Shown here piece by piece: positions 1,923 through 63,346 of a DNA stretch of 64,000 nucleotides. This DNA comes from Ulva prolifera (taxonomy: Eukaryota > Chlorophyta > Ulvophyceae > Ulvales > Ulvaceae). The stretch lies in NCBI GenBank assembly GCA_023078555.1, contig CM041198.1, positions 6,266,924 to 6,330,923 on the forward strand, read 5' to 3'. How positions within the stretch are numbered: position 1 is the stretch's first letter; each line of letters opens with the position of its first letter. The notes under the pieces were generated by a model. The model was not told the DNA's origin. It worked only from the letters and a program-made list of their open reading frames with translations, and did no database searches. Both the position numbers and the translations under genes were made by a program.

Positions 1923-3598
1923 AAAACAGCTCACGATGTAGCAGGTCACAGCCCCGCCACGATTGCAGACCCCTGTCAACTTGAAGTGGCTGCCACATGC
2001 AAGTCCCCCGCGAGGACTGCATACGCACGCGCTGGACCTGAACGCGTTACACGTGAACCATCCGAGTCATCACAGAAAGCACATGTGCTATCAGCATGTA
2101 CAGGCCACACTTCGGATCTGTTCGAGTGCAGCCACACGAAGGGATCGAAATGCAACCGCGCGGTGGCATTCATGATGTTGCGTGAGGTTGGTCCCCGCTG
2201 CAGTTTCAACAAGTTGTACCGAAGCGCTTAAGCGCGCTTGGCGTCTTCGCAGGCTTCAGAGTGCTACTTGACGTCCCACGATGGTGGCGTGACGGCCTCC
2301 CTCTGTCACGCGGCACGCTGCCGACCCTGACCCTGCCCGACCAAGCGCCCCGAGAGCTGCCCACCCTCACATTCGTGTATACACGATATATCGCGTTTGT
2401 GGATCTCCCAGTGGCGTGGGCATGATGCGAGGATGCCACCCGCGCCATATGATATAATGTTGCGATATCGTTGGAGCCGGGCTGCGCTGCATCATGTGTG
2501 GCTGGTTACACCGTGACGCCACTCGCGGCGTGCAGGGGTCCATTCGAGCAGTGGTCATATCACTGGACATCCACGTCACCACTTGCAAGTGGCAGCGCCT
2601 GTGCACCATATGGTCTATGTGCATGGCCTCACCCTGTGGGTGCTGAGTGCTGGCAGCACTCGTGTAGGCATATCAGCACATGTGTACATGTACATGGCTT
2701 GGGTGTGAGCACTGGGAATGCAGCCTGCGTTTCTTCTGAGAAGGATCAACGAGCATGGGCAAACCTGACACGTGGATGTCTCAGAGAAGATATCCGAATT
2801 CGAAAGCAGCACTGGCACACACAGCCTCACTGCGGCACACTGCGGCTGCAGCACAACTCCTGGTCCCGCAGGGCCGGAACCTGGACTGAAGCATAAGTTA
2901 CCATCATCGGTGCTCATGATGCCCATGATGTCTAGTGCAGCTACTAGCTGCACTAGTAGTACAATAGCTACTTTACGGCACAGGTACGTAGCCAGTTGCA
3001 ACAGCAAGCTGGTAGCCAAGAGCTCTTGGCTCGAGCAAGCTGTACCGTGACAATCCATGTCTTGCCATGTCAGTGCAGTGATGTGTGTGTGCGTGGCAGG
3101 TGGACTGTTGATTCAGAACAGACTCTTTCGAGATGTGTTACGTTGTACAAGGACAAAGGCAGCAAGCTTTCGAGATGTGTGTCTGTTTATGCTGACCCGG
3201 AGTGCAGTGATGTGTATGTGCTGCGGGTTCAACTGCTAAATTGGCCATATATCGTCCCCAACAAGCTGCAGCAGAACTATAGCTAGTAGTACTGCAGTTT
3301 CCTGCAGCACTACTAGTAGAGCTGCATTCTGTCAGGGGACGGTTAACCGTTGGGAGGTGAGTACACTAGCTAGTGTTGCAAACCGTTGGGAGGTGAGTGT
3401 TGCAAGGGAGGCCTCCTAGGAGTGTGTCACAAATTTAAACCACGGGATCCCCTCGATGTGTGTGTCACAAAACACTGGATAGGCTCCAGCAGGCACCAGA
3501 ACCTTATAAGTTAATTAATGGTGCAGGTGCGGGTTGACATGTGGCATGCATGCTCCACTGGCAGGGCAATGACTGGCCAGCTACCTAGGCCTGTGCTG

Positions 3599-3646
3599 CA
3601 ATTGCATTGCACAGTTGTATTGCAATACAACTGTGCAATGCAATTG
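3599..3646. repeat. Perfect 48-bp palindrome
   Basis: The two 24-base halves (3599-3622 and 3623-3646) are exact reverse complements with no spacer; the centre reads TATTGCAATA. It could extrude as a cruciform or, if transcribed, form a long hairpin. No open reading frame or mobile-element terminus accounts for it. Confidence 0.85.
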
Positions 3647-3774
3647 TGTGTAATCATGATGTACACATCATGACCATGTGTGCACTGGGAACCAGTGTGC
3701 ATATCATATGATGTCAACAGGCCTCCTAGGAGGCAGGTGGGCGGTCATGTCACTGCAGTTCATAGCATGATGTA

Positions 3775-3841
3775 AAACAAGTCCGAAAACATTTCACGTG
3801 TGCACCCCGGGGTGCACACGTGAAATGTTTCGGACTTGTTT
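3775..3841. repeat. Near-perfect 67-bp palindrome
   Basis: The left arm (3775-3808) and right arm (3809-3841) are reverse complements apart from one A missing on the right. The centre is CACCCCGGGGTG. There is no loop. It lies 130 bp from the palindrome at 3599-3646 but shares no sequence with it. Confidence 0.85.
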
Positions 3842-5093
3842 CAGGCCCTGTGCCTAGGCACAGCTGGCCATGGTATATTACCAGTATCCATTCCCCAGTG
3901 CCATCACCCAAAGAAGATTTCAGGATCGGAAGTCACAGCCACACAGCTGCACGCATCAGATCCACCTCAAGGCGCATATGTTGCAATTGCACATCCACCT
4001 GCAGCTGAAGCTGCCTGCTCGAGCAGATGGATTCCGGCAGAGGCCATACTATACGGTGGCTAGCAGTGCACTCAGATGCAGGCACCACACACCCGATGAC
4101 ATTCATGTCAAGAAGACATTGATCACATATGCTTGCGGAGGAGGGGCTGTATGAAACAGTGGGTGACAAGCACAAAGCCGGAGAGGCTGCAGGCTGCCAT
4201 GGTAGCACCGCCGGGGACTCCTGTTTACTTCGGAAGTAAACAAGCACAGCAATGCCTTGTGGTACCGTCACGATGTCACGGCAAATCATATGTCAAGGCA
4301 GATCATGCGTGACGCACGGGCGGGCGGCCATATATACTGTCTGGAGCAGTGTGTTCTGAACTGCACATACGTATGCATGTGTCGGTCACATCCGCTATAG
4401 GTGCCCCGGATCTACTAGCATCCATGGCGACATTAATATTAATTAATATTGAACCAAGTATAGGTCGCTTGAAGCGCTTCTCCGTGACACGCAAGTGCTG
4501 CAGAATGGGGGGCCGCAGCCGGATCAGAACATCTACCCTGTGGGGTGCACAATGCATGCCAGTGGGAGCCGACTGCCAGCTAGCGTGGCCGGGGGCACAA
4601 TCACTGAGTGGCATGCCATAGGCGTCACGCTCGCGGGCGGTTGTGGAGGCCGGGGCGCCTCCGCCTCCAAGCTGCTGCATGCAACAGTGTACTGCAGCCC
4701 ACAGGCAGCCGTTAACAATTGCTGGCTGTATGCTAGCGCCATGCTGTGGCTGAGGCGCGAGCTGCAGGATGCAAGGCGGTCCGCACCCCCCCACAGCACC
4801 CGTCTAGGGTTCTCTAGTGCAGTATTTCAGTGCAGTCACCTGCTGGGTAGGCCCTCTCGCGTAGCGTAGCCGACCGCTATGCTGCTGCGCAGCAGCACGC
4901 CCTAGGGCGTCATGCAATGACACCAGTGCCCTGTCACCGTTTGATACCCCCCCCCCCTCTGGTCTCGCGTGCTCCGTCATTGTGTTCCATGTGCACCGAA
5001 TCACTGCAGTACAGGGGGAGTCCGCAGCCTGGATCAGCCTCCGCGCTGCCGCATATGGCCTGAGCCACCAGATAGGCCCACTCATGAGTGCAC

Positions 5094-5193
5094 GAGCAGT
5101 GTGCATTTCATTGCCTTGGCAAATCAAGAGTATATTGGCATGTGGACTTGCCTGGACTCTAGATTTGGCAAGACCATGAAATGCACACTGCTC
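5094..5193. repeat. Fold-back repeat with 32-bp arms
   Basis: The arm at 5094-5125 (begins GAGCAGTGTGCATTTCAT) faces its imperfect reverse complement at 5162-5193 across a 36-bp spacer. The few mismatches lie in the middle of the arms. Either a decayed fold-back element or an inverted duplication; I saw no flanking duplication. Confidence 0.6.
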
Positions 5194-5624
5194 CGAGTAG
5201 GCACTCAGTGCCAGGCTGAGCGCATCCCAAATATAGAGTGTCAATATATTGTAATATTGCACTCGAGTTGCAGCATGCATGCATGCAACATATGTTCAAC
5301 CATAAGAGTTTCCTGATTCATCTTTTCAATGAGTCATGATGCCCAGGTCCTGTGAAGCTTTGCAGCTTATAATTAGGTGAAAGGCACTGTAAGTTCTGGA
5401 GATGGCAGGCCATTGGCAGCTGTTGAATTGGGACAGCGCTAGCCTTCGATTAATCGGAGAGGGTGCCTGCCTCGTTGCAAATCTGGAGAGGCTGCCTGAG
5501 ACCACCTGCTACCTCCCACTGCAACTTTGAAGTGCGTCACTGCAAGCTGCACTGCAGAGAGCAGTTTGAGATGTTAACACGCCCTGTCATCAGCACTCAG
5601 GCTGTGTAAGCACTCAGGCTGTGT

Positions 5625-5893
5625 AAAGTAAAGTAAATCTAAATTTACTGAGCCGCATCCTATTGGACATTGACAACTCCGAATTAACGGGACCACATAT
5701 GCCGAAGGGGTAAACCACCTGGAAACCCCCCTCAGACGACCGTACGCAACTCACAGGGCCTTCTCCTGTGCTAAGCGAGGTGGTCACGTGCGGCCGTTTC
5801 GATTCCCCAAAGCGCACGCAGAATCGAACCCACGACCTCCTGAAACGGAGGGGGTAGCTTTTAATCCGTCCTCAACCCATTGGACCGAGGGGG
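5625..5893 (-). mobile_element. tRNA-derived SINE
   Basis: Read on the minus strand, the element begins with a tRNA-like head (about 5893-5817). It has an A-box-like GGTCCAATGGGTTGAG (5871-5888 region) and a canonical B box GGTTCGATTC (5830-5821), the internal promoter of RNA polymerase III. The head cannot be folded into a convincing tRNA, so it is a derivative, not a tRNA gene. A body of about 180 bp follows, ending in the simple tail TTTACTTTACTTTAC (to 5625). The last 75 bp of the body and the tail recur at 23916-23993 without the head, as expected for a 5'-truncated second copy. Confidence 0.6.
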
Positions 5894-6624
5894 CAGCCCA
5901 CGTGTGTAATCACTGTGACGAAAACAGTCTACAGGAGGTACTGCAGTGGCATCATGCTGTACCATGCTGTACCTGCAGCATATGCTGCAAGTAGTACAGC
6001 ATGTACGTCCTGTCTGCAATTCCCACAGATGAGCCTATAATTTCATTCAGATCATCATCAATGATTCCATTCACTGAATTGGCAATTGCAACTTGAGATC
6101 TGGATCCCCACACTCTGTCTTCCTTGGATTCGTGGTCTGTGATTGTCCTCTTTTGCAGGTCTCTGAAGTGCTGCATGTCCTCTTGGCCAAGCTTGGCAGT
6201 ATGATATCAGCATCACCTTGACAAATTTAAACAGAGCTCAGCTTATGGCCAAGGAACACAGCAGGCGCTTGATCGATTGCAGGCATGTGGCAATCCAGTG
6301 GTATGCAGTCATGTGGCAATCCAGTTGTATAGTAGCCGTATCATTGGATTGCCACAAGTCACCATGGCCAACCTGAATCCAGGTTCAGCAAACGCTTACC
6401 GGTGGCCAGGCTGTTCTCTAGAGTGCATGCCCGGCCTCTGTCCTTTGTAACGCCATACCAACAGTGTGTTGGTCTGTCACACATGCGTGGGGGTGGTTGT
6501 GTGGGAGTGAGGTGCCCCTGTCTGTGCGCTAGGCCTGGTGTCCTTGTGGTATCATCCTTGTGGTGTCCTAGTGCAGCCTGCCTTGCCCTTGTGCGATCAT
6601 GTGTGTCACATAAACGGCGTTGGT

Positions 6625-6682
6625 GTTGATTCCGATGAGATTGTTTTGTGGTATCTGCCTTCTCCCGTTCACTCTTTTGTAA
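6625..6682 (+). repeat. Copy of the TTTTGTAA-tailed short repeat
   Basis: The plus strand reads GTTGATTCCGATGAGATT, a diverged centre, then TTCTCCCGTTCACTCTTTTG and TAA, ending at 6682. The conserved terminal 20 bases match the other copies exactly. An 18-base spacer separates its 3' end from the long G tract that starts at 6700. Confidence 0.65.
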
Positions 6683-6699
6683 TCATGCCATCTCAACAC

Positions 6700-6704
6700 G
6701 GGGG

Positions 6705-6739
<35 letters not shown>
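6700..6739. repeat. Poly(G) tract
   Basis: Forty bases of G with a single A at 6707. Likely to form G-quadruplexes and prone to length change and assembly error. The complementary type of tract (poly C) occurs at 50028-50059. Confidence 0.95.
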
Positions 6740-6740
<1 letters not shown>

Positions 6741-9700
6741 TGCAGCCATGGTTTGTCATGATCCTCACATGCATTCATGCAGATTGACCTTGACCATGAA
6801 CGGTCTGGCCTACCTCTGATAGGTAAGCCCTGTATGTGAGCCATGTACCGGCCATACCATGTCTCAATCTAGTCTAGACATGGTGTGGCTGGTACATGGT
6901 TCACATTTACTTCCGAACTTCATGCCATGTATAAGGTAGGTCAACCGAAATCTCCGTTTGGCTTCCCCAATGTGCCACTCATCTCTTCTGTAGACCATGC
7001 ATATATAAGTCAGCAGAAACATATACGAACAGTCCATAGCATTATGCATGGCTTATATGCATCATGCATATGAACGAATCAGTCAATCTGTCGTCCACCA
7101 CACAGTGCACGGCGTCCCACCATCATCATAGTCAGCCAGCCTGCGTCCACACACGCACCTATACGTCAGCGCCTCCTTGCAATGTGAAGAATACAGTTCC
7201 GTACATGTACTTCCTTTTGGTCATGCGAACACCTGTCACTGATACGGATCTGGAACGCTTGAAGCGCTGAACCCCACGCATGTGCATGGGCGGAGCCGAT
7301 TGGGTGCGGCGCAGGTCGTCGGTGAAAGCTCTATCGACTCACATCATGTGTGCCTGCGAATTCGATCGAGGGTTAATAAGACCCATAAATATTATAATAA
7401 ATGATGAGAAAATTTGCAATAGGGCCAACACGGAAAGGTCCAAGGAGCATGGGTGCCTTCAGTGCTGTCAAGCGTGCTGCCACACTGCTGTGGCTGATCA
7501 ATGAGAGATTTGAATCGACGCACACGTGCACGCGATCGAACACTCATACCTGCATGCATATGGCATGGGCGTCGCCACGTAACGTATGCCACGACTGCTT
7601 GCATACACGCAAAGTCTGTCAACCTCGCCGGATCGAACAGTGTACGCGTGCGCAGTGTTCAGCGTTCGCACACGTGGCAGTGCCCACCGGTCTGCGCATC
7701 CACCAATGCTCTTCAGAATCCAAGGCCCGGCCCAAGCATCAAGGCGCCTGTCTCGTGAGAAATTCGTGTACATATATTGCGTCTGCGGCGATAGCTTGCG
7801 CAGTCTGCCCAGGAATGGCTACATTGAGCTGGCAATTAGTGCTTGGAGCTGATGTCTGTGGCACAGCACAGACACGCATTCCCAAGTTTTACTCAAGCAG
7901 AGCACCAGCCTGACCAATCTTGCGGTACCATGTGTACGTCGACGCAATGTTATGCCTACACATCACGCTTCGACGTCGCGACGCGTCGTGCTGATGCCAG
8001 TGAAACAGCACTACCATGTAAACCTTACGTACATCTGAAACCGATGGGGCCTGTGTCTCAGATGGCGACACCGCCCAGCTAACTCCAGAGAAGCTAGAGG
8101 TATCCTTCCGGAACAATGTGATACTGAAGTTATGCCGAGCACGCCGCAGGTATCTCAGATAGCTAGATGTCGGACATAGCGCCATGCGGCAGGGGGGCGC
8201 CTTCAAGCCATGAGACTGTCCGAATCGCAGTCAGCAGCCTCATGAGGTGATCAAACTCAAGTATTACAAAAGATTCCAGTCATGTCCCGGTGCCGAATGC
8301 CACTGTTTTGGATTTCTCATGCCAGTTGACCCCTCTAGAGGCAGCTGTTGCGCAAAATATCTTTATGACATGCGTCGCTGACGGGACTTCAGCCATTTCA
8401 CCTCGCGTGAGCAACCGCAATCGCAAGCATTGCACTATGACCTCATCGATGCCGTGTGGCACGAGGTCCCGGTGTTGCCGGAGCAGCTGCAGGGGCGGCT
8501 GCAGGTGCGTGGGGGCCTGCACACGTAGCTTCGCGGTGCGAGGTCCTTGTGTTTGTGTGAGCGCGTTCCGAAGATAATCGTCTGCAGCTGTAGCAATCCA
8601 GTCGGACCCGGACCGTCGACGGTCCCAAGGCCAACCTGCGGCACATGCAGCGTCACACAGCACCGGGAAACGATCCCAAGGTCGCGACCGTGACAATTAA
8701 GTGGGCGGCATTCAGTTACAGTCGAGTGGGCGGGTGTAGTCAGAGACTGGGCTACAACTGAATGTTATCTCCTATATAGGAGATAATCGGCAGTGCACGT
8801 GCACTCGGGTTGTATTTCAGAGTGCGCACAGCGCTGCTAGCAGAGATCCCGGCCCCCAGATCTGCCGTGATGTCAAGATACTGCAGACGTCTGACTGTAC
8901 AGTGTCTGTGTGTATCTATGCCCGTACACTCTTCTGTGCCAACGGTGTAGTGTGCTCTGTGCAGCAACGTTGACCAGCGTGAGAACCATCATGATAACGG
9001 TCAGGAGCAGAACTGTATAGTATACTGGAATATGGCACGGTGACAGCATGCATATGCACACTGCCAGTGTGGCACGTGTCCTGCAGCTGCCACAGTATAG
9101 TCCCGGCCACCCAGTGGTGGTGTAGCGGCCATATCTCTGCATTGCCACAACTACCTGTGCTGAAGTTCCATGGCCAGCTGCTTGTACGTACAAGTATACC
9201 AGCTGGAGGGGCCGCAACAGGGGTTGGGGTTTGGGGCACTGGCAGGCGATTGGTTAACCTGCCTGCTTGCAATGCCAAGGTTACGGTGGGGGCCATGCAT
9301 TGGGTGTGCTGTGCTGTGCTGTGTGACTGTCACTGTGCTACATAGCCATCTCAAACTGCTTCTCTTGCACTTGTCCCTCCTGCTTTGGTGACAGAGTTGA
9401 CAGGCAGACACCCACACAGCAGGAGCCTCACAACCGCTGCAGCTCATGTGCCGCCAAGCTGAGTCACGGCACCCTGCACCAAAAGCTATAGCTGTGCCGT
9501 GCTTCCGGCTGTGGTTATATCAACAAAACATGTTTAGTGCTGTGTGCCCTTGGAAGCTGCGCAGCCAACCAGTACAAAGGGTGTACAGCATGCATTCGAA
9601 TGATTCCACAGACTTCGAACACTTCGAAGCTTGGAATCCGCCCATGCAGACAATTGTCTTGCACCAGCACCAACTCACAAGGCCCGGGTTGTTCAAGTTG

Positions 9701-40978: not shown

Positions 40979-42339
40979 CGCTGCGGCGGGAGAGGCGGAG
41001 CGCGGGGCGGGGGCCGTGCGGGGGCGGTGTGGCACAGGAGGGCCGAGGGTGTCGGTGCGCTGTAGATGTACTGGTCACCGTGACCGCGGATCCTGCAAAG
41101 AACTGAGGCTGTGTGGCGTGGGTGATGCCATGAGCCCTTGCGTGGGTGCACGGCGGCGTGGTGCTGCGCACGGGGGCATGCGTCGTGCCTGTGGTCTGCA
41201 TGGCTGAGGAGTGAGGCCAGTGCAGCATGGTTCACGGCACCGGGTGCAAGGTGTGGCATGTATTTTTCGATGCTTGGCGATACATGCAAAGCGACTGGCG
41301 TATCGGCATGTTGACCAGTGATCAATGGGGTCGTTGTTCACACCAAGTCTGCACAGGCAACACCTCCGTGTCGGTCAACTTTAGGTCAGGGGGTCGTGTC
41401 ACATAGAGAATCTTCTGAAGTGCTGGCGTCACCATGCGCTATAGGCTACTAGTAGCGATCATGGTACGTGCATTAGATGTCGAAAGCTGTCATCGGGGAC
41501 TGTGCTGTGCGCAAGGAACGCGAGACTCGAGGACACCGTTTTCGATCCTCGAAAAAACACTGGCAAGACACGTACGAGGATAAGTCAAAGTGCTAGGTGT
41601 CTGTGACTCAGAAAGAGCGACGCGGAGGGATGGAGCGCCTAGCTCCAGCTTGATTTGGCAGCACGCAGCACGAACAGCTCAGGTGCAACCGACGCCGTGG
41701 ACACACACTCGCTGCGCCATCCTTGCTTGATAATTTGCCAGTTAAAACTTTGAACAGTAAATCAAATGTGAAGGCTCGCTGAGAGCGGGACTTGCCTTTG
41801 CCATGTTGAGCGATGTGAGCTCGAGATCCACAAAGCCTTCTGATACGTCTCCAAACAGCTCAAAGCAGACCTATTGTGGGATTGGAACTATTGAAGAGGA
41901 AGTTCAAACACTGCGGAGGATTGCTACATACATATGCGCCATCGAGCTCAAGTGCTGCGTTCTCACGACCGTGGTCGCTGATGACAGCCGACAATTCAAA
42001 GAGCAGCGGCCCATTATCACTACATGCTTGTAGGCATCACTTTTTGAATTCTTTGGGGCCAAGGATTCTTAACATGGAACTGGCCGATTGAGCACCTGCG
42101 AGTCACCACGTAGACACACAAGCACGGCGCTCGCCAATAACGCAAAATCGCGCCCGAATTGGTTTGCGGTCCTTAATGGATGTCGTTCATAGTGCGGGAT
42201 ACATGGCTTGCGCCTAGGCTCCGTACGCCCAGGGCTAGCAGCTACAGTGATACCGATACAGCCGACTTTGGGCGATTCTCCCCAAACCTCCGAGATTAAT
42301 CAGCCATTCTGTTCATGTCACCTAAATAATGCTGAAAGT
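40979..42339. other. Intergenic, one small ORF
   Basis: A plus-strand ATG frame at 41803-42033 (76 codons, ending TAG) has an amphipathic middle (GTIEEEVQTLRRIATYICAI) and could be real or an exon. It has no family I know and no TGCAG-bounded partner. Otherwise nothing is seen. Confidence 0.3.
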
Positions 42340-42421
42340 GTTCCCCAATCTATCAGATTCGTTGTCGATTTCGCGCGCCCTCACTGGGAACACTTCGTAG
42401 CGGGAGTGCATGACCCCCTAC
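42340..42421. repeat. Diverged end of a transposon related to the 5-kb TIR element
   Basis: Reads GTTCCCCAATCT, then TTTCGCGCGCCC, then TAGCGGGAGTGCATGACCCC and CTA. This is the same order and spacing as the right terminus of the element ending at 47904 (TTCCCCAATTT, TTTTGCGCGCCC, TTAGCGGGAGTGGATGACCC, CCTG), with about a quarter of bases changed. The matching left end was not found, so this is a truncated or rearranged relative. It stops 454 bp before the intact element starts. Confidence 0.6.
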
Positions 42422-42977
42422 CGATACGCAACATGAAGTGCACGGGCTTGCCAAAGATTGTAAGTGGAACGCGGTAGGACGATTCACAGGACGTGAAACG
42501 GCCAACTTTCCAAAAAATTTACGAGTGTAGTCCTTGCGTCGGTGCTGGCATGCAAATGGAACTCGCTGCGGCATCACGAGATGGCACGGCCAACACGGCC
42601 AACACGCACAGCGCATTCATACGGAAGCAGCTCTGCCATGCTCGAGCAGCTTGTTGATGAGATGAGATATCCACAAAGACAATCCTGAACCGAGCTACCA
42701 AGGGCGCTGCGTGCGCAATCGCACTCGCTACTTATCACATGCTGCACAGCATCGATCCAGTCCGAACAAAGGCGCCACCTTCCGATCACAGGCGCACCTT
42801 TCGCAGGGGATAAATCACAACTGACTCAACCGTGAGTCAATGTTAGCCGCATGCATAATGGGATCAAGGCTTGTGCAGGGGGTCATCCACTCCCGCTAAA
42901 AGGTGGTCCCCCCCCGGGCGCGCAAAATCCGCTGCGAAACAGCCAAATTGGGGAAGGTTTCCACTATGGTCTATGTT

Positions 42978-44113
42978 GAATGAACAATTCTAGTGTTTTA
43001 GTTCGGAGTCTTGGGGAGAGTTGGCCATATTCGCCGAAATGGCCGGTCTGGTTGGGGAGAACTGTCTGTGGCTTCCCAACGCTGCCCAAAGCTGCCCAAT
43101 CACTCAATTCCTTCCCCAATCTTTCCCAAATTGCATCTTTCAAGTTAATAGGTGTCTTCGGTTGCCTATGGACGGCCGCGCCGGATTGTTCCGTAGCCCG
43201 GTGACGTCCTTTTGTGGCAATTGACTTGCTACTGCTCCGAATCACCTCCTGAGGACGTGCTACAGCTGGGGGACGGTTGTGTCACGACCTATAATCCATT
43301 GCTAACTAGTACTTGATCTCCGCATTCTGTTGTTGTCGCCTTAGTGGCCTGATGCTACAGTGTAACGACTGCAGCTTGCCCATGCTGGTTCAAACCTGCT
43401 ATATATCTGCCTGCTGCTTCTCTGTGCAACAGAGTCCATGCTTGGTATTCAGTCACCTGCAAGTGTACTGCTAGGCAGCAAAGTATTTCTGCTATGTTTT
43501 GTGCATTGCGCTATGTGAATGTGAAATGCGGGTATTTCGTCAGGTGTCCTAGCCTTTCGAAAACCTCTATGATGGCGGCCATTGCCTCTTGCTCCGGTCA
43601 TTTATTTGATGCATTTCGTGCAGACCACGTAATTGACGGTATTGTCGCACAAGCTTTGTCGCCGGGGATTAGTCCAGACTATATACACTGTACAATTTTA
43701 TATCTGTGCCCGATCATATCTCAGGACTCAACATACAAACAAGCGACACTGTTCAGCCACTCAATCATGACATGGTAGATGGCTACATATGTGTACACAC
43801 ATCAAGCATGTGCTGGGATGTCCAATTAGTCAGGCAGGAGAAAGCCTCTGGAGGCTGCAAGGAGAAGGTGGGTGTGGATAGGGTCGAATTACGCCTCTTG
43901 ATTGTCAATTTGCCAGGCATTGTATACATGGCATTGGCAGCAAGCAAGCCTTGAACCCAGGTGGCTTGTCTCCGCTCTGTAAAGGCACTGGCCGCCAGCA
44001 GCCGCTGCCCGGCAAGACCAGGGTAGCGGCGTCCATGAACAGATTTACCTTTCCGCCATACATTATTGAGCTGCAGGAGTTGTAATGACAGGTCATCCTC
44101 CGTCAGTTTACCT
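42978..44113. other. Transposon left interior and overlapping reading frame
   Basis: 42978-43780 is non-coding interior with the subterminal TTGGGGA-type motifs. A minus-strand frame at 44175-43783 (130 codons, no ATG at its upstream limit) overlaps the end of the transposon gene in another frame. It looks protein-like at first (NPVVKQFVRKAQKLVVEGKL, then LQLLQLNNVW), then degrades. It may be the true C-terminus reached through a frameshift, or a remnant. Confidence 0.4.
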
Positions 44114-47100
44114 TCAACTACTAACTTCTGCGCCTTCCTCACAAATTGTTTCACGACTGGGTTGAGGTTTGACACGCTCTTCGAAGATCTTCACTGCTGA
44201 CTCAACATCACGTTTCAATCTGCGAGTCCTCTGCTTACGAACGACCTTTTGAGAGAACTTGAAACGTGCCTGCCCACTCTTGTCGTTGGATCTTCTGGAG
44301 AGCCAATGCATGAAAGAATTGTACACCCGTCCCTTCTGAGACTTGTGTAACCAAAGACTGACGCAGTTGGGGCACATGCCGGATGGATGAGTTGTAGAAT
44401 CAGTGCAGTGGATGGACCGTAACACACGGGCCCCCTTTCGAAAGGTCACCTTTACAGACATCGCAGCTGCAGACTTAGATGCTGATGCATCTGAGTACCA
44501 TTCAAGTAATTCCGGGCGGGCTGTCGGCAAACCGGCACATGGGCACAAAGGCAGTATAGGATCAAGGACGAGATTGGGGGAATCTGTCACGGGGTCATGC
44601 AACTCGTCTCCACCAGCATGCCCCCCTAGACGTTTCCCGCGGCACGCGAGGTCCCTGCAGCATTAATCGAATCCGCCCTCCTGCCTGAATGAAAGTTTTC
44701 AATTGCATGCATAAGCCGAGCCCCATGCGACTTCAACTTCAATGCAGCCATCGCCTCTTCCATTCCAGGGATCCCATGGTCAATTGCATCGGCAATCTCG
44801 TATTCATCAGGGGCAATTGGGATGAGTTTAGCTACGCAGTCATTCCACGCCTCCTTGTACGTTGCGAACAAGTTCTGGGCCTGAATCCCCTACAAACAGC
44901 ATGCTACTAATGACAGGCACCGGATCACGCCAACATCATGAGTTCAACAGGCTTCCGACCAACATCATCACACCATGACGATGAAGGAACAACTCACGTC
45001 AATAATGCTGGCTGCAACCTCTGGTGAACAGTTGACATCTTTGAAAGTGGAATACTGTTTACTGATAATTAGCGGGTGGTCCTTGTATGCTCGTTGCAAT
45101 GCATTCCAAAGTAGGCTGTCTGAATTACTGTCATCGACTTCAATTGTTGGATGTGAGGCGATACTGACGTGTGGAATGGGGAGGGGACGCAGTGGGGAGG
45201 TGGTAATATCGCCCTGCATAGCCGATCTGCCTCGTTTCTCCACCACAGCCTCTGCGGATTGCTCAGTGACCTGAGCAACGATGTCATCGTCCTCGGTATC
45301 AGCTGAAATTTCTGGTTCCTGCTCCGTCTTCTGGGGAGATTCCATGACTAAAACGCCATCATGTTTTTGACGAAGAACCGTCACGGAAGCCATTTCCTGA
45401 ATTTCTGATTTCTTGATGGCTGCTGCAAAGGATGATGCATCTTCAATCTTTTTACCACTCCCACGCAGAAGACCGTGAGTCAGCATCCCTTTTGGTTGAA
45501 TTGTGCCTTGGTAAACATACTCCAAAGCCTCCCGAGGTCGAAATTGCGGCTTGGGCAGAGCTCGTAGCCGGCTACGAGAAGTCAGAAAACGTAATCTAGC
45601 AGTGACCTTACTGTATAAGGAATTCTTGCTCGCCCTACACATCGATTGAGTGAAGTCCCACGGGCATTTTGTACAGACACCATCAGATTAGATAAGCACA
45701 CTGAGTGATGTTCGTAATGCAGTTATCCATTGACAAGCTTAAGGACCAGTATTGGCGTACCACCAGCGCTGTCTCAACTGACCACGAACGCTGTTATTGC
45801 AATCTTCCGAAAGATAGGATATCACAGGGAGAGCATCGCCAGGGGCCTGCACTGTTGCTTCAAGAGCAGACATTGCTTCAACCTACAAATCCAACAAATC
45901 ACGGTTGCACCCCAATTTACATCACAAGCTACCAGCTCAATGGGTTGATTACGCAGCGTACTCGGAATGGCTTGATATCGCCTGCTCGAATAGCCGCTAG
46001 CAAGGCAGCATGTTCTTCCGAAATATTGCAATCAGTCTCGGACGGTTTCTTTATCTTGCTTGCAGCGAATTCCAGCTCCGCAGCTCGATATAAGGCTGTA
46101 TAGCTAGCGGCCGATAGGAGCAGAAAATTTAACAAACACAGCGCATTGTCTTCAATGAAGGCACGGGCACAAACAAATGGATCGCCCCCCGTCATCAGTG
46201 GCAGAAAGGCATTGCAACAATGAAAGTAAACGCCGCCCCTGCTGTGCTTAAAGTCTCCTGCACGCACATACCATTAAGGCTTAAGGCTGGGCTACAATGG
46301 AAACATGCACATGCTGGTACACATTCACTCACACGCACTCATACTTAGCGTATGCAGACACACACGGACAATAATGCGATAAGATATCACACGACTGCGT
46401 GCAAATGTAGACACAGACACAGACAGGCACAGACACACGAGCATTCACCAGCAACAGTACGCAAGATTGCGAACCTGCCACATCATCAAAAACCGGGGTC
46501 TTGTTAGATCGCAGACTTGCGTCCTCGTCGATCCGAGTGTCCATACGGTCTAAGACCTCACAGTACATGCCAGCGATGTCTTCAGTGCTAGCCCCGTCCG
46601 GAAACATGAACCGCAAGTACTTGTCACAATCAAGGGCATGTTGCTTATACTTGACTTCACCAGCCTGCCATTCAATCGCCTACATGACACAAATAAGTGC
46701 TCAGTCCATTACTGATGAATTTTGCAAGTACATGATGCCTAAACTACATTAGGATGACTGCGCACCGCTGTGTGAAGCTCTGTCACCCGTGCCAAGAAAT
46801 CAGCGATCAATGCGTCTGACACCCACTCAGCGGGCATAGGCATGACATTGGCCAAAAGGTCGTCTAGGGCTTCCCTGCACAATACTCGACTGTCTACTGG
46901 TTGTACTGTGGCAGCTTCTATTCCGTGATCCGTACTGGCCTTCGTGGAATTGCGCGCAGACTTCGACACAGATGCCCGAGAGAGCATCTCTATCACAGTA
47001 CATTGAGTGTTTACAACCGACGACCGCTCGTCTGAACCAAGCCCTGTTGGGGCTTCGTCTGGCATGGATGACGGTGTAATCGAGGGGAGGGGATCTTGCA

Positions 47101-47530
47101 AATGGCACGGTGAGGGGTCTCTCTGGCGGGCCCCAGCTGGTGAATCCTACAAGTGCATATGCTGAAGTACAATGCCACGCCATGCCTTCACATGTAAGAT
47201 CACAAAGTTGGAAAGAAAGCGTACCCGCCAGCTACGTGACTGTGCATAATGCGCCAGCCACTCCCTAGCGCCACTGTCGAGCATGAGTTCCACATAGCTG
47301 TTACCACCACTGCCTTTCGTAGACTCGAGGTCAGCTAACTTGAAACAAAACTGGAATATTTCGGCGTCCCTGATCTCATTTGGCACGAGCCTAGCTCGTG
47401 CAATGGCGGGCAACACAGCGTCTTGTAGCTGCCTCGCCGTCACAGGCTTGCGATTGATGTAATAACAAGCAGAAACGTTTTCGACAGCATCATCTAACTC
47501 CTGTTGCGCCGGTCTCGCGCGAGACACCAT
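44114..47530 (-). CDS. Transposon-encoded protein of unknown family, 892 aa
   Basis: Eight exons join in phase to one frame: 47530-47225, 47146-46748, 46679-46475, 46257-45962, 45882-45761, 45634-44998, 44889-44646 and 44583-44114 (TGA). Exon 1 starts MVSRARPAQQ, predicted helical. Exon 2 is Ser/Thr-rich, then helical. Exon 4 has a Cys/His patch (YFHCCNAF) and a hydrophobic helix (ALCLLNFLLLSAAS). Exon 6 is basic, then acidic (EPEISADTEDDDIVA). Exon 8 has a possible zinc-binding cluster (IHCTDSTTHPSGMCPNC) and a Lys/Arg-rich tail (KVVRKQRTRRLKRD). I see no DDE catalytic core, YR-type recombinase motif or helicase. By position it should be the transposase. Introns begin mostly GTACGC and end mostly TGTAG, unlike host genes. 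Exon ends 7/8 are the least certain. Confidence 0.6.
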
Positions 47531-48110
47531 TGTCTGATGGACACAACACAGCCGACAAATGTAGTACTCTCGAACTTCTACCGATCAGGCATCGAGAGTC
47601 ACAAACATGTCATGTAACAACAGTGCAACAAATTATAGCTCATTTTCGTTGTGTTCCTCGGTCTGGAAGCAATGGCGGTTGATTGGGGATGATCTCGCAT
47701 CGTTCCCGCGATATTGGGGAAAACGGCGACATTTCGCCGAAAAGGGCACTCTGCTTGGGGACTTTCCCCAAGACTGAGATCGTACACTACGAGTTCCCAA
47801 TTAACATAGACCATAGTGGAAACCTTCCCCAATTTGGCTGTTTCGCAGCGGATTTTGCGCGCCCGGGGGGGGACCACCTTTTAGCGGGAGTGGATGACCC
47901 CCTGCTTGTGCATGCAATTCCTGGCTGTACACTGCAGCTCATTTCGGGCAGCTGGAAGCCCTCCCGGCTGCAATCTCCTTTGCACTCCAGGGACCCTGCA
48001 CGCCAAGATAGGGAACAGGAACCGCGTACACGTATCAACATATCTGGGCCCCCGCCTCAGCCCCTGCTGCACTACTTGGCAGTGCACCTGTCAACGAGTG
48101 TATCTCAGTG

Positions 48111-48630: not shown

Positions 48631-50027
48631 GTGCTCTAGTTCGAGACAAATGTCATGCACCTTTTGTGGCTGGTGGCATGGCGCCAGGTGGTGCACCGTA
48701 TCATGCAGGGCCATCTGCTCCTGTTCCAACAAGGCTCTGTTTCTCTGGGCGTGGCGTATGTAGCACGTGAACAGGTGACACCAGTAAGTTGTCTTGGATT
48801 CACGTCGAGGAAAAACACAGACCGGGGCTTGGAGATTGGACCACACAGTCCGCATTGAGCATTTGAAGCACGAGATGTGGCATTGTCGGGGCTCGGCAAT
48901 CCATAGATGTGTCCGCTACTGCATACACACGGTAGTGTTCACTACTATGCTCCCAGAACCGCGGCAAGATAGTTTGCGCGGTAAACTATCCCGCGGCATA
49001 TACAACTGCTCCAAGGTGTATCTATGATTATTACATCACCACACACCATTGCTTCAAAGACACACACCCTGCGGCTAGACGACGCCGCAGAGGTGCCTGA
49101 TGCCACGAAAGAGACGAATCACGGCACGCGCCATACCGATCATACATCTGCAGCATTATGCCGGCACGCAACTCCGCGAGAACTCCGCCCTTGTAGCGCG
49201 ATCGTCATCGCACGGCAAACCCGCGGGACTCGGCCACTCCACAGGACTGGCTGAGCCCTGCGTATACACGTTATAATCTTGAAAATGTCCGCATGCACTG
49301 AGGTGTGGCACAGCAGCTGGGGCCTACCGTCCACCGCATCTCACACAGCACGCCTGCCACAACGCAGCGCACGAGCCTGCTCTGAAGGCGCCGCACAAGC
49401 CCCGGACACCTCATTCATGCGCATTGCAGCACAGAGTCAGAGCTGCACGGGGGCGCAGGGCCTCACAACTAGGGCTCGGACAGAAATCCGCAACGCCACC
49501 CAGCGGAGCTCGAACCTGTCGCCTCCCGACCTCCGAGACTGCAAAGTCACGCTCCCTGTCCACCAACCAGTCCACACCACTATGAACCAGTCCAAACCAA
49601 CAAGCTCAAAAGACAGTAGTATACACCTTAGTCGGACCTAGAGAACACCATCGGCGTTCCCTATTCGGACATCAGTTTCCGCTGCATCATCTGGCGCATA
49701 AGTTTGTACACACACCAGCGCTCTCCGCTGCATCATCTCTACCTGCTGAGGCCCCACAGGAGTCTCCGAGCCCCGCATGCTGGCAGCACCGCCTCACTGG
49801 CACTGGCAGTCCAACGACTGATTCCATGTGCTCAGTGCAGGCCGTGCGAAGTACGCGCACGCGCTGCGCCACGGCCGCAGATGCACGCAAGCTCCAAGCA
49901 CACGCAGACCCGGCCCTCCCGCCCGCCGCAGGCAGCATGCGACCGCACGGTGGCCCCATTGCTAGACTCCTTCTGCTTCGTAACAAGCCACAGAATGCTT
50001 CAATGTTACGTCGCCGCAGCGCCCCCG

Positions 50028-50059
<32 letters not shown>
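50028..50059. repeat. Poly(C) tract
   Basis: Thirty-two consecutive C residues, preceded by CCCCCG. Likely unstable in length and a probable assembly weak point. Confidence 0.95.
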
Positions 50060-62956: not shown

Positions 62957-63346
62957 TCTTTACAAAAGAGCGAACGGGAGAAAACAAACACTGAAACCGA
63001 ATCTCACCCGAATCAACTGCAACATACACTCACACACACACACGAACGCCACAACCGCACTCACAACTCAGTCCGGCAGGATCGCGTCCTCCAGGCCCGC
63101 ATCATATCGCAACCCTTGCTCCCGAGAGATGACAAGCCCAGACTTCCGATACATATCCGCATTGCCGCGCTGCAATGACACCGACAACACCCGCAGCGCC
63201 CACTGGACAAACGCGCCTTTGGAGATGCGCCCCCAATGACACCGACAACACCCGCAGCGCCCACTGGACAAACGCGCCTTTGGAGAGGCGAGCGGTGTCA
63301 ATCGCGCCAGTGGCGAGTCACGGTAGGACGACAAGCGGAACACCAA
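62957..63346 (-). mobile_element. Longest retroelement tail, with coding remnant
   Basis: From TCTTTACAAAAGAGCGAACG the copy matches 51215-51353 to 63098 and continues further. On the minus strand the extension reads as a coding C-terminus (QRGNADMYRKSGLVISREQG, then GLEDAILPD and a stop at 63068), followed by the 3' UTR. Upstream of that the frame is broken by a tandem duplication of 61 bp (63174-63234 and 63235-63295), not a multiple of three. This is the best view in the window of the parent element's protein end. No reverse transcriptase motif is included. Confidence 0.5.
63174..63295. repeat. 61-bp tandem duplication
   Basis: AATGACACCGACAACACCCG through GCCTTTGGAGA occurs twice head to tail with a 61-bp period; the copies differ only near the end (GATGCGCC against GAGGCGAG). 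Confidence 0.85.

Follow-up and report, generated by a model that had tools for sequence, protein, structure and literature searches.

An internally deleted copy of an 8.0-kb cut-and-paste DNA transposon in Ulva prolifera

A 5-kb transposon copy flanked by 8-bp duplications

We analysed a stretch of 64,000 nucleotides from Ulva prolifera (GCA_023078555.1, contig CM041198.1; C3:6266924-6330923 in our coordinates), hereafter called the window, which belongs to a genome of 88.9 Mb in 44 contigs. The window contains a 5-kb transposon copy with long terminal inverted repeats (TIRs), bordered by a target-site duplication (TSD) and carrying part of a transposase-type gene on its minus strand. Its features, in window positions, are listed below; L014 and L015 are two longer copies of the same transposon found elsewhere in the genome.

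42869-42876: left TSD, 8 bp, GCTTGTGC
42877-47903: 5027-bp copy of the transposon, related to the 8.0-kb form and internally deleted
42877-42977, plus strand: left TIR, 101 bp, perfect, starting AGGGGGTCATCC
42948-43119: left TTGGGGA/TCCCCAA cluster, in and beside the TIR (element positions 72, 135, 176 and 237)
43813-43814: deletion junction; the 8-kb form has a further 3,011 bp here (element positions 942-3952 of L015)
44114-44583, minus strand: start of exon 8 of the transposase-type gene, to the first out-of-frame stop
44181-44187, minus strand: insertion of 7 bp that L014 and L015 lack and that throws the remainder of exon 8 out of frame
44646-44889, minus strand: exon 7
44998-45634, minus strand: exon 6
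45761-45882, minus strand: exon 5
45962-46257, minus strand: exon 4
46475-46679, minus strand: exon 3
46748-47146, minus strand: exon 2
47225-47530, minus strand: exon 1
47683-47832: right TTGGGGA/TCCCCAA cluster, in and beside the TIR (element positions 4807, 4838, 4879, 4889 and 4950)
47803-47903, minus strand: right TIR, 101 bp, perfect
47904-47911: right TSD, 8 bp, GCTTGTGC

Genome-wide, the 30-base terminus matched 119 times in forward and 107 times in reverse orientation when up to three mismatches were allowed (226 TIR ends), and the reversed pattern, used as a control, did not match anywhere in the genome. From 100 listed ends of these 226 we picked 40 loci, which with the window copy gave 41 places to examine; 40 of them have both ends and one (L052) has a single end. 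An exact 8-bp TSD was present in 37 of the 40 two-ended copies and a longer one in none, the other three having one (L031, L044) or two (L040) mismatches. Note that over 368 bp the flanks of L018 (C4:2835713) and L021 (C4:8304847) are 97% identical in inverted orientation; the two probably represent one insertion within a duplicated segment. Since these flanks are shared, the independent sites number 39 rather than 40, and 36 of them have the exact 8-bp TSD, against a chance expectation of about 1 in 65,536 per site. L037 and L041 have 51 bp of flank in common (88%), at different places. The base counts of the target sites (n=37) favour G and C weakly, if at all. With a TSD of fixed length and TIRs in many copies, the element is a TIR cut-and-paste DNA transposon.

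The initial annotation, made from the window sequence alone, had placed the element at 42876-47904, with perfect inverted termini of 102 bp and a 6-bp duplication. Counted from 42876 and 47904, the ends do match perfectly over 102 bp as inverted repeats. However, the base adjoining AGGGGG varies among copies (A, C, G or T), so at either end the outermost base of the 102 is part of the TSD and not of the TIR, which is 101 bp long. With the boundary one base further out, 37 of the 40 copies give a 6-bp repeat; one base inward, the same 37 give 8 bp, and the true span is 42877-47903. The 6-bp duplication had also been an argument for a superfamily without a name, to which 8-bp duplications in other copies were taken as the counter-evidence. 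Tabulating the flanks of the other copies with this TIR revealed exactly such 8-bp duplications, and this argument is refuted. In contrast, the clustering of TTGGGGA-type motifs inside both ends, described at the same time, was confirmed: the window element has nine, all within its two outer 300-bp ends, out of 17 in the whole 64 kb.

The window copy has lost half of a predicted ten-exon gene

Three of the two-ended copies are long (L014, 8033 bp; L015, 8035 bp; L016, 9488 bp), and, the window copy aside, the remaining 36 are 1.4-2.2 kb. L014 and L015 differ by three bases and one 2-bp gap. Compared with L015, the window copy consists of element positions 1-941 (99.6% identical) joined to positions 3953-8035 (99.5%). 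The element first described as complete therefore lacks the 3,011 bp at 43813/43814, and its derivation by deletion from an autonomous-type transposon with 8-bp TSDs is well supported.

On the minus strand of L015 we predicted a gene of ten exons and nine GT..AG introns, with an uninterrupted frame of 1937 codons; no other long gene was seen in this copy, where the stop-to-stop frames of the plus strand do not exceed 142 residues. The least certain junction is that of exons 7 and 8, for which ten alternatives keep the frame open. Applying the L015 splice sites to the window gave eight exons, seven GT..AG introns and exactly 892 codons on the minus strand, reproducing the gene model of the initial annotation. 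The first 868 of these codons agree with residues 1-868 in the product of L015, except for four substitutions; the 7-bp insertion at 44181-44187 shifts the last 24 out of frame. We therefore rejected the 892-residue product as the transposase, as it is the N-terminal part of a 1937-residue product with an out-of-frame tail.

In the window copy the later part of exon 8 and exons 9 and 10 are damaged or deleted: the missing stretch covers exons 9 and 10 together with the end of exon 8, in which the first conserved acidic block lies. That no catalytic signature can be seen in the 892-residue product is explained by the deletion, which removed from this copy the half in which one would be expected.

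The missing half is conserved and contains candidate catalytic residues

All three long copies have exons 8-10, at 99% identity. Moreover, a decayed relative at C4:6899206-6902099, interrupted by several stops and 57-68% identical in its larger blocks, retains CCDEVAV, GADNAAPHAALARGI and GSQECESFFG.IRSSG, and the genome also holds pieces of more diverged lineages. The conserved blocks of the family are CCDEVAV.QVVDSIPST, GADNAAPHAALARGI and GSQECESFFG.IRSSGSLQNTGAVSCG. The ratio of nonsynonymous to synonymous substitution rates (dN/dS, by the NG86 method) was 0.06-0.12 in four of five fragments and in the fifth dS was beyond correction; these values are only rough since synonymous sites are saturated. 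The protein sequence of the catalytic-half fragments has plainly been kept by purifying selection.

By their conservation, D998, D1136 and E1485 would be the likeliest catalytic residues, with 347-349 residues between the second D and the E. No [CD]xxH, CxxC or H(3-4)H motif was found between D1136 and E1485 of this putative triad; a DxxH at 1542 and a CxxH at 1557 lie C-terminal to E1485. The half of the gene absent from the window copy is likely to be the part that cuts and pastes.

Long and short copies of the family

The near identity of the long copies suggests recent movement. The short copies retain both ends and TSDs, which agrees with what is expected of elements moved in trans. In three short copies of a diverged lineage (L069, L070 and L072), the first 69 codons adjoin the last 104-122 or so codons of the gene, at 43-57% identity; this joining of the two ends of the gene makes it probable that there was once a second long lineage.

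L016 contains an insertion of 1.45 kb at about element positions 2550-3994, whose ends are TAGGGCTGGCC and whose duplication, ATGATGGC, is 8 bp long. By its ends this insertion resembles a short hAT element.

A model for the family and what weighs against it

Taken together, we consider it very likely that this is a cut-and-paste family with 8-bp TSDs, whose 8.0-kb form encodes a presumed transposase of about 1937 residues, and that the window copy derives from this form and is defective. In the model that we propose, this protein would bind the ends, which are rich in TTGGGGA, and cut at AGGGGG..CCCCCT by means of an RNase-H-like DDE core (candidates D998, D1136 and E1485); the core would join the ends across an 8-bp stagger, and host repair would produce the duplication. 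In the window copy, a 3-kb internal deletion would have taken the candidate catalytic half and the 7-bp insertion shifted the frame, so that this copy could move only in trans.

Several results weigh against this model. The 1937-residue product, searched whole and in pieces, gave no Pfam match over the cut-off; the P-type model (PF21787) did not match the protein at E<=10 with the HMMER filters on, and the hAT and KDZ models did not match it either. The PDB sequences, searched by sequence and with two-row profiles, gave no credible match, and NCBIfam, searched with exons 8 and 9 only, gave none. AlphaFold predictions for the exon 8 stretch (390 residues) and exon 9 (361 residues), made from alignments of 4 and 5 rows, had mean predicted local distance difference test (pLDDT) scores of 33.8 and 32.7, too poor for a fold search. 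The DDE triad would accordingly follow from conservation and motif order, not from a profile or a fold. In addition, the ten-exon gene of the 8.0-kb form is a prediction, its full reading frame was checked in L015 alone, and the gene carries lesions in two of the three long copies (the 2-bp gap of L014 in exon 4 and the 1.45-kb insertion of L016 in exon 6). Finally, the genome scans did not reveal another 5-kb copy.

Sub-cut-off Pfam matches (ECSIT_N, HTH_19, Isochorismatase, Vert_IL3-reg_TF, A_amylase_dom_C and DUF1244) were taken as chance, as were PDB matches to RET kinase (E 0.25-0.68) and LRD-2V (E 1.4). No relative was found in viral contigs and prokaryote genomes, which says little, these collections being viral and prokaryotic.

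Which superfamily does the transposon belong to?

The transposon may belong to the P-element superfamily as a very diverged member, although we doubt it. In the P element the RNase H fold is split by a long helical insertion, and the E lies in a helix late in the protein; the block SQExxESFFGxIRSxG resembles this E region. The candidate residues of our protein would have the same order, D, D, long insert and late E. As described in PMC7776569, P elements (Drosophila P, THAP9) have 8-bp TSDs, as here, together with TIRs, subterminal repeats and internally deleted copies. However, no sequence or profile similarity to P was detected in this protein. PF21787 did not match it, and the model works, since an animal P-like fragment, used as control, matched it at 2.9e-20. 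PF21787 was also silent in this genome, as it was in the control genomes. Against a two-row P alignment, hhalign gave a probability of 0.12%, away from the D blocks, and the Smith-Waterman scores were equalled or exceeded by 489 and 503 of 2000 shuffles. Moreover, the TIR is 101 bp here and 31 bp in P, the whole 1937-residue protein has no THAP Pfam match, and its candidate insert lacks the [CD]xxH signature; C/DxxH between the second D and the last E is given for P, hAT, MuDR, Kolobok and Dada in PMC9587614.

Somewhat more doubtful, in our opinion, is that the 8-kb family represents an undescribed DDE superfamily. Such a superfamily would be characterised by 101-bp TIRs, 8-bp duplications and a protein of about 1940 residues. 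In this protein a D998-D1136-E1485 triad would be combined with an insert of about 350 residues lacking the known C/DxxH and CxxC/HxxxH signatures; the core would be preceded by a block rich in cysteine and followed by a conserved domain. The initial annotation had suggested a new or very diverged superfamily. Both of its reasons fail, the duplication being of 8 bp and the signature being sought in a product that lacks the relevant half, but the suggestion itself retains some support from the full 1937-residue product, which has neither a Pfam nor a credible PDB match. Our literature search did not meet this transposon family, and we do not claim that it is unpublished.

Membership in Novosib, a Repbase superfamily, seems unlikely. 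Novosib elements come from green algae and have 8-bp TSDs. They are listed among the DDD/E superfamilies in PMC9587614 and stand in the protist-only column of one survey table (PMC4438587). The likeness to our family is one of description.

We regard a diverged hAT or KDZ (Zisupton-type) element as improbable. The ends of hAT elements are G-rich, as here, and may resemble (C/T)AGGG; in our family the element starts with A and the base before it is not conserved, so its ends are not C/TAGGG. The protein matches neither a hAT nor a KDZ Pfam model, and no [CD]xxH lies between the candidate second D and E. Genome-wide, PF18758 (KDZ) gave a single sub-cut-off match, on another contig (best E 3.35), with the control genomes silent. 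The 8-bp duplication speaks for this assignment, being usual in hAT and also made by Zisupton and Dileera (Kyakuja duplicates 7 bp), according to PMC12730594; Zisupton and Kyakuja are reported in Chlamydomonas relatives in PMC8226300.

It is more improbable still that the gene for this large protein is accessory or captured, the true transposase being encoded elsewhere. The unusual length of the protein and the absence of any transposase profile match would fit this, but it is the sole long gene seen in L015, its catalytic-half fragments are under purifying selection, and the diverged short copies retain pieces of the first and last exons of this same gene.

The CMCT group (EnSpm, Transib and Plavaka), which combines a TSD of 2-5 bp with C(2)C and H(3-4)H motifs located between the second D and last E (PMC12730594), was rejected, since the TSD is of 8 bp here and these motifs were not found between D1136 and E1485 of the putative triad.

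These results indicate that an internally deleted copy can pass for a complete transposon of unknown superfamily, the lost half being the one that held the classifiable part. They also yield a transposon family with 226 TIR ends and near-identical long copies. Its protein, unrecognised by the profile libraries tried, is a target for deciding whether DDE superfamilies remain unnamed in this lineage.

Other repeats in the window

A 160-bp relic at 42260-42419 represents a diverged lineage of the same transposon family. Its right TIR end is about 79% identical to that of L034, its left end is not TIR-like, and it is flanked by a perfect 8-bp duplication, ACCGATAC, at 42252-42259 and 42420-42427. 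The window also has a tandem repeat at 63173-63290 (61-bp unit, 1.9 copies, 98% matches) and near-pure runs of G and C, 40 and 38 bases long, at 6700-6739 and 50022-50059.

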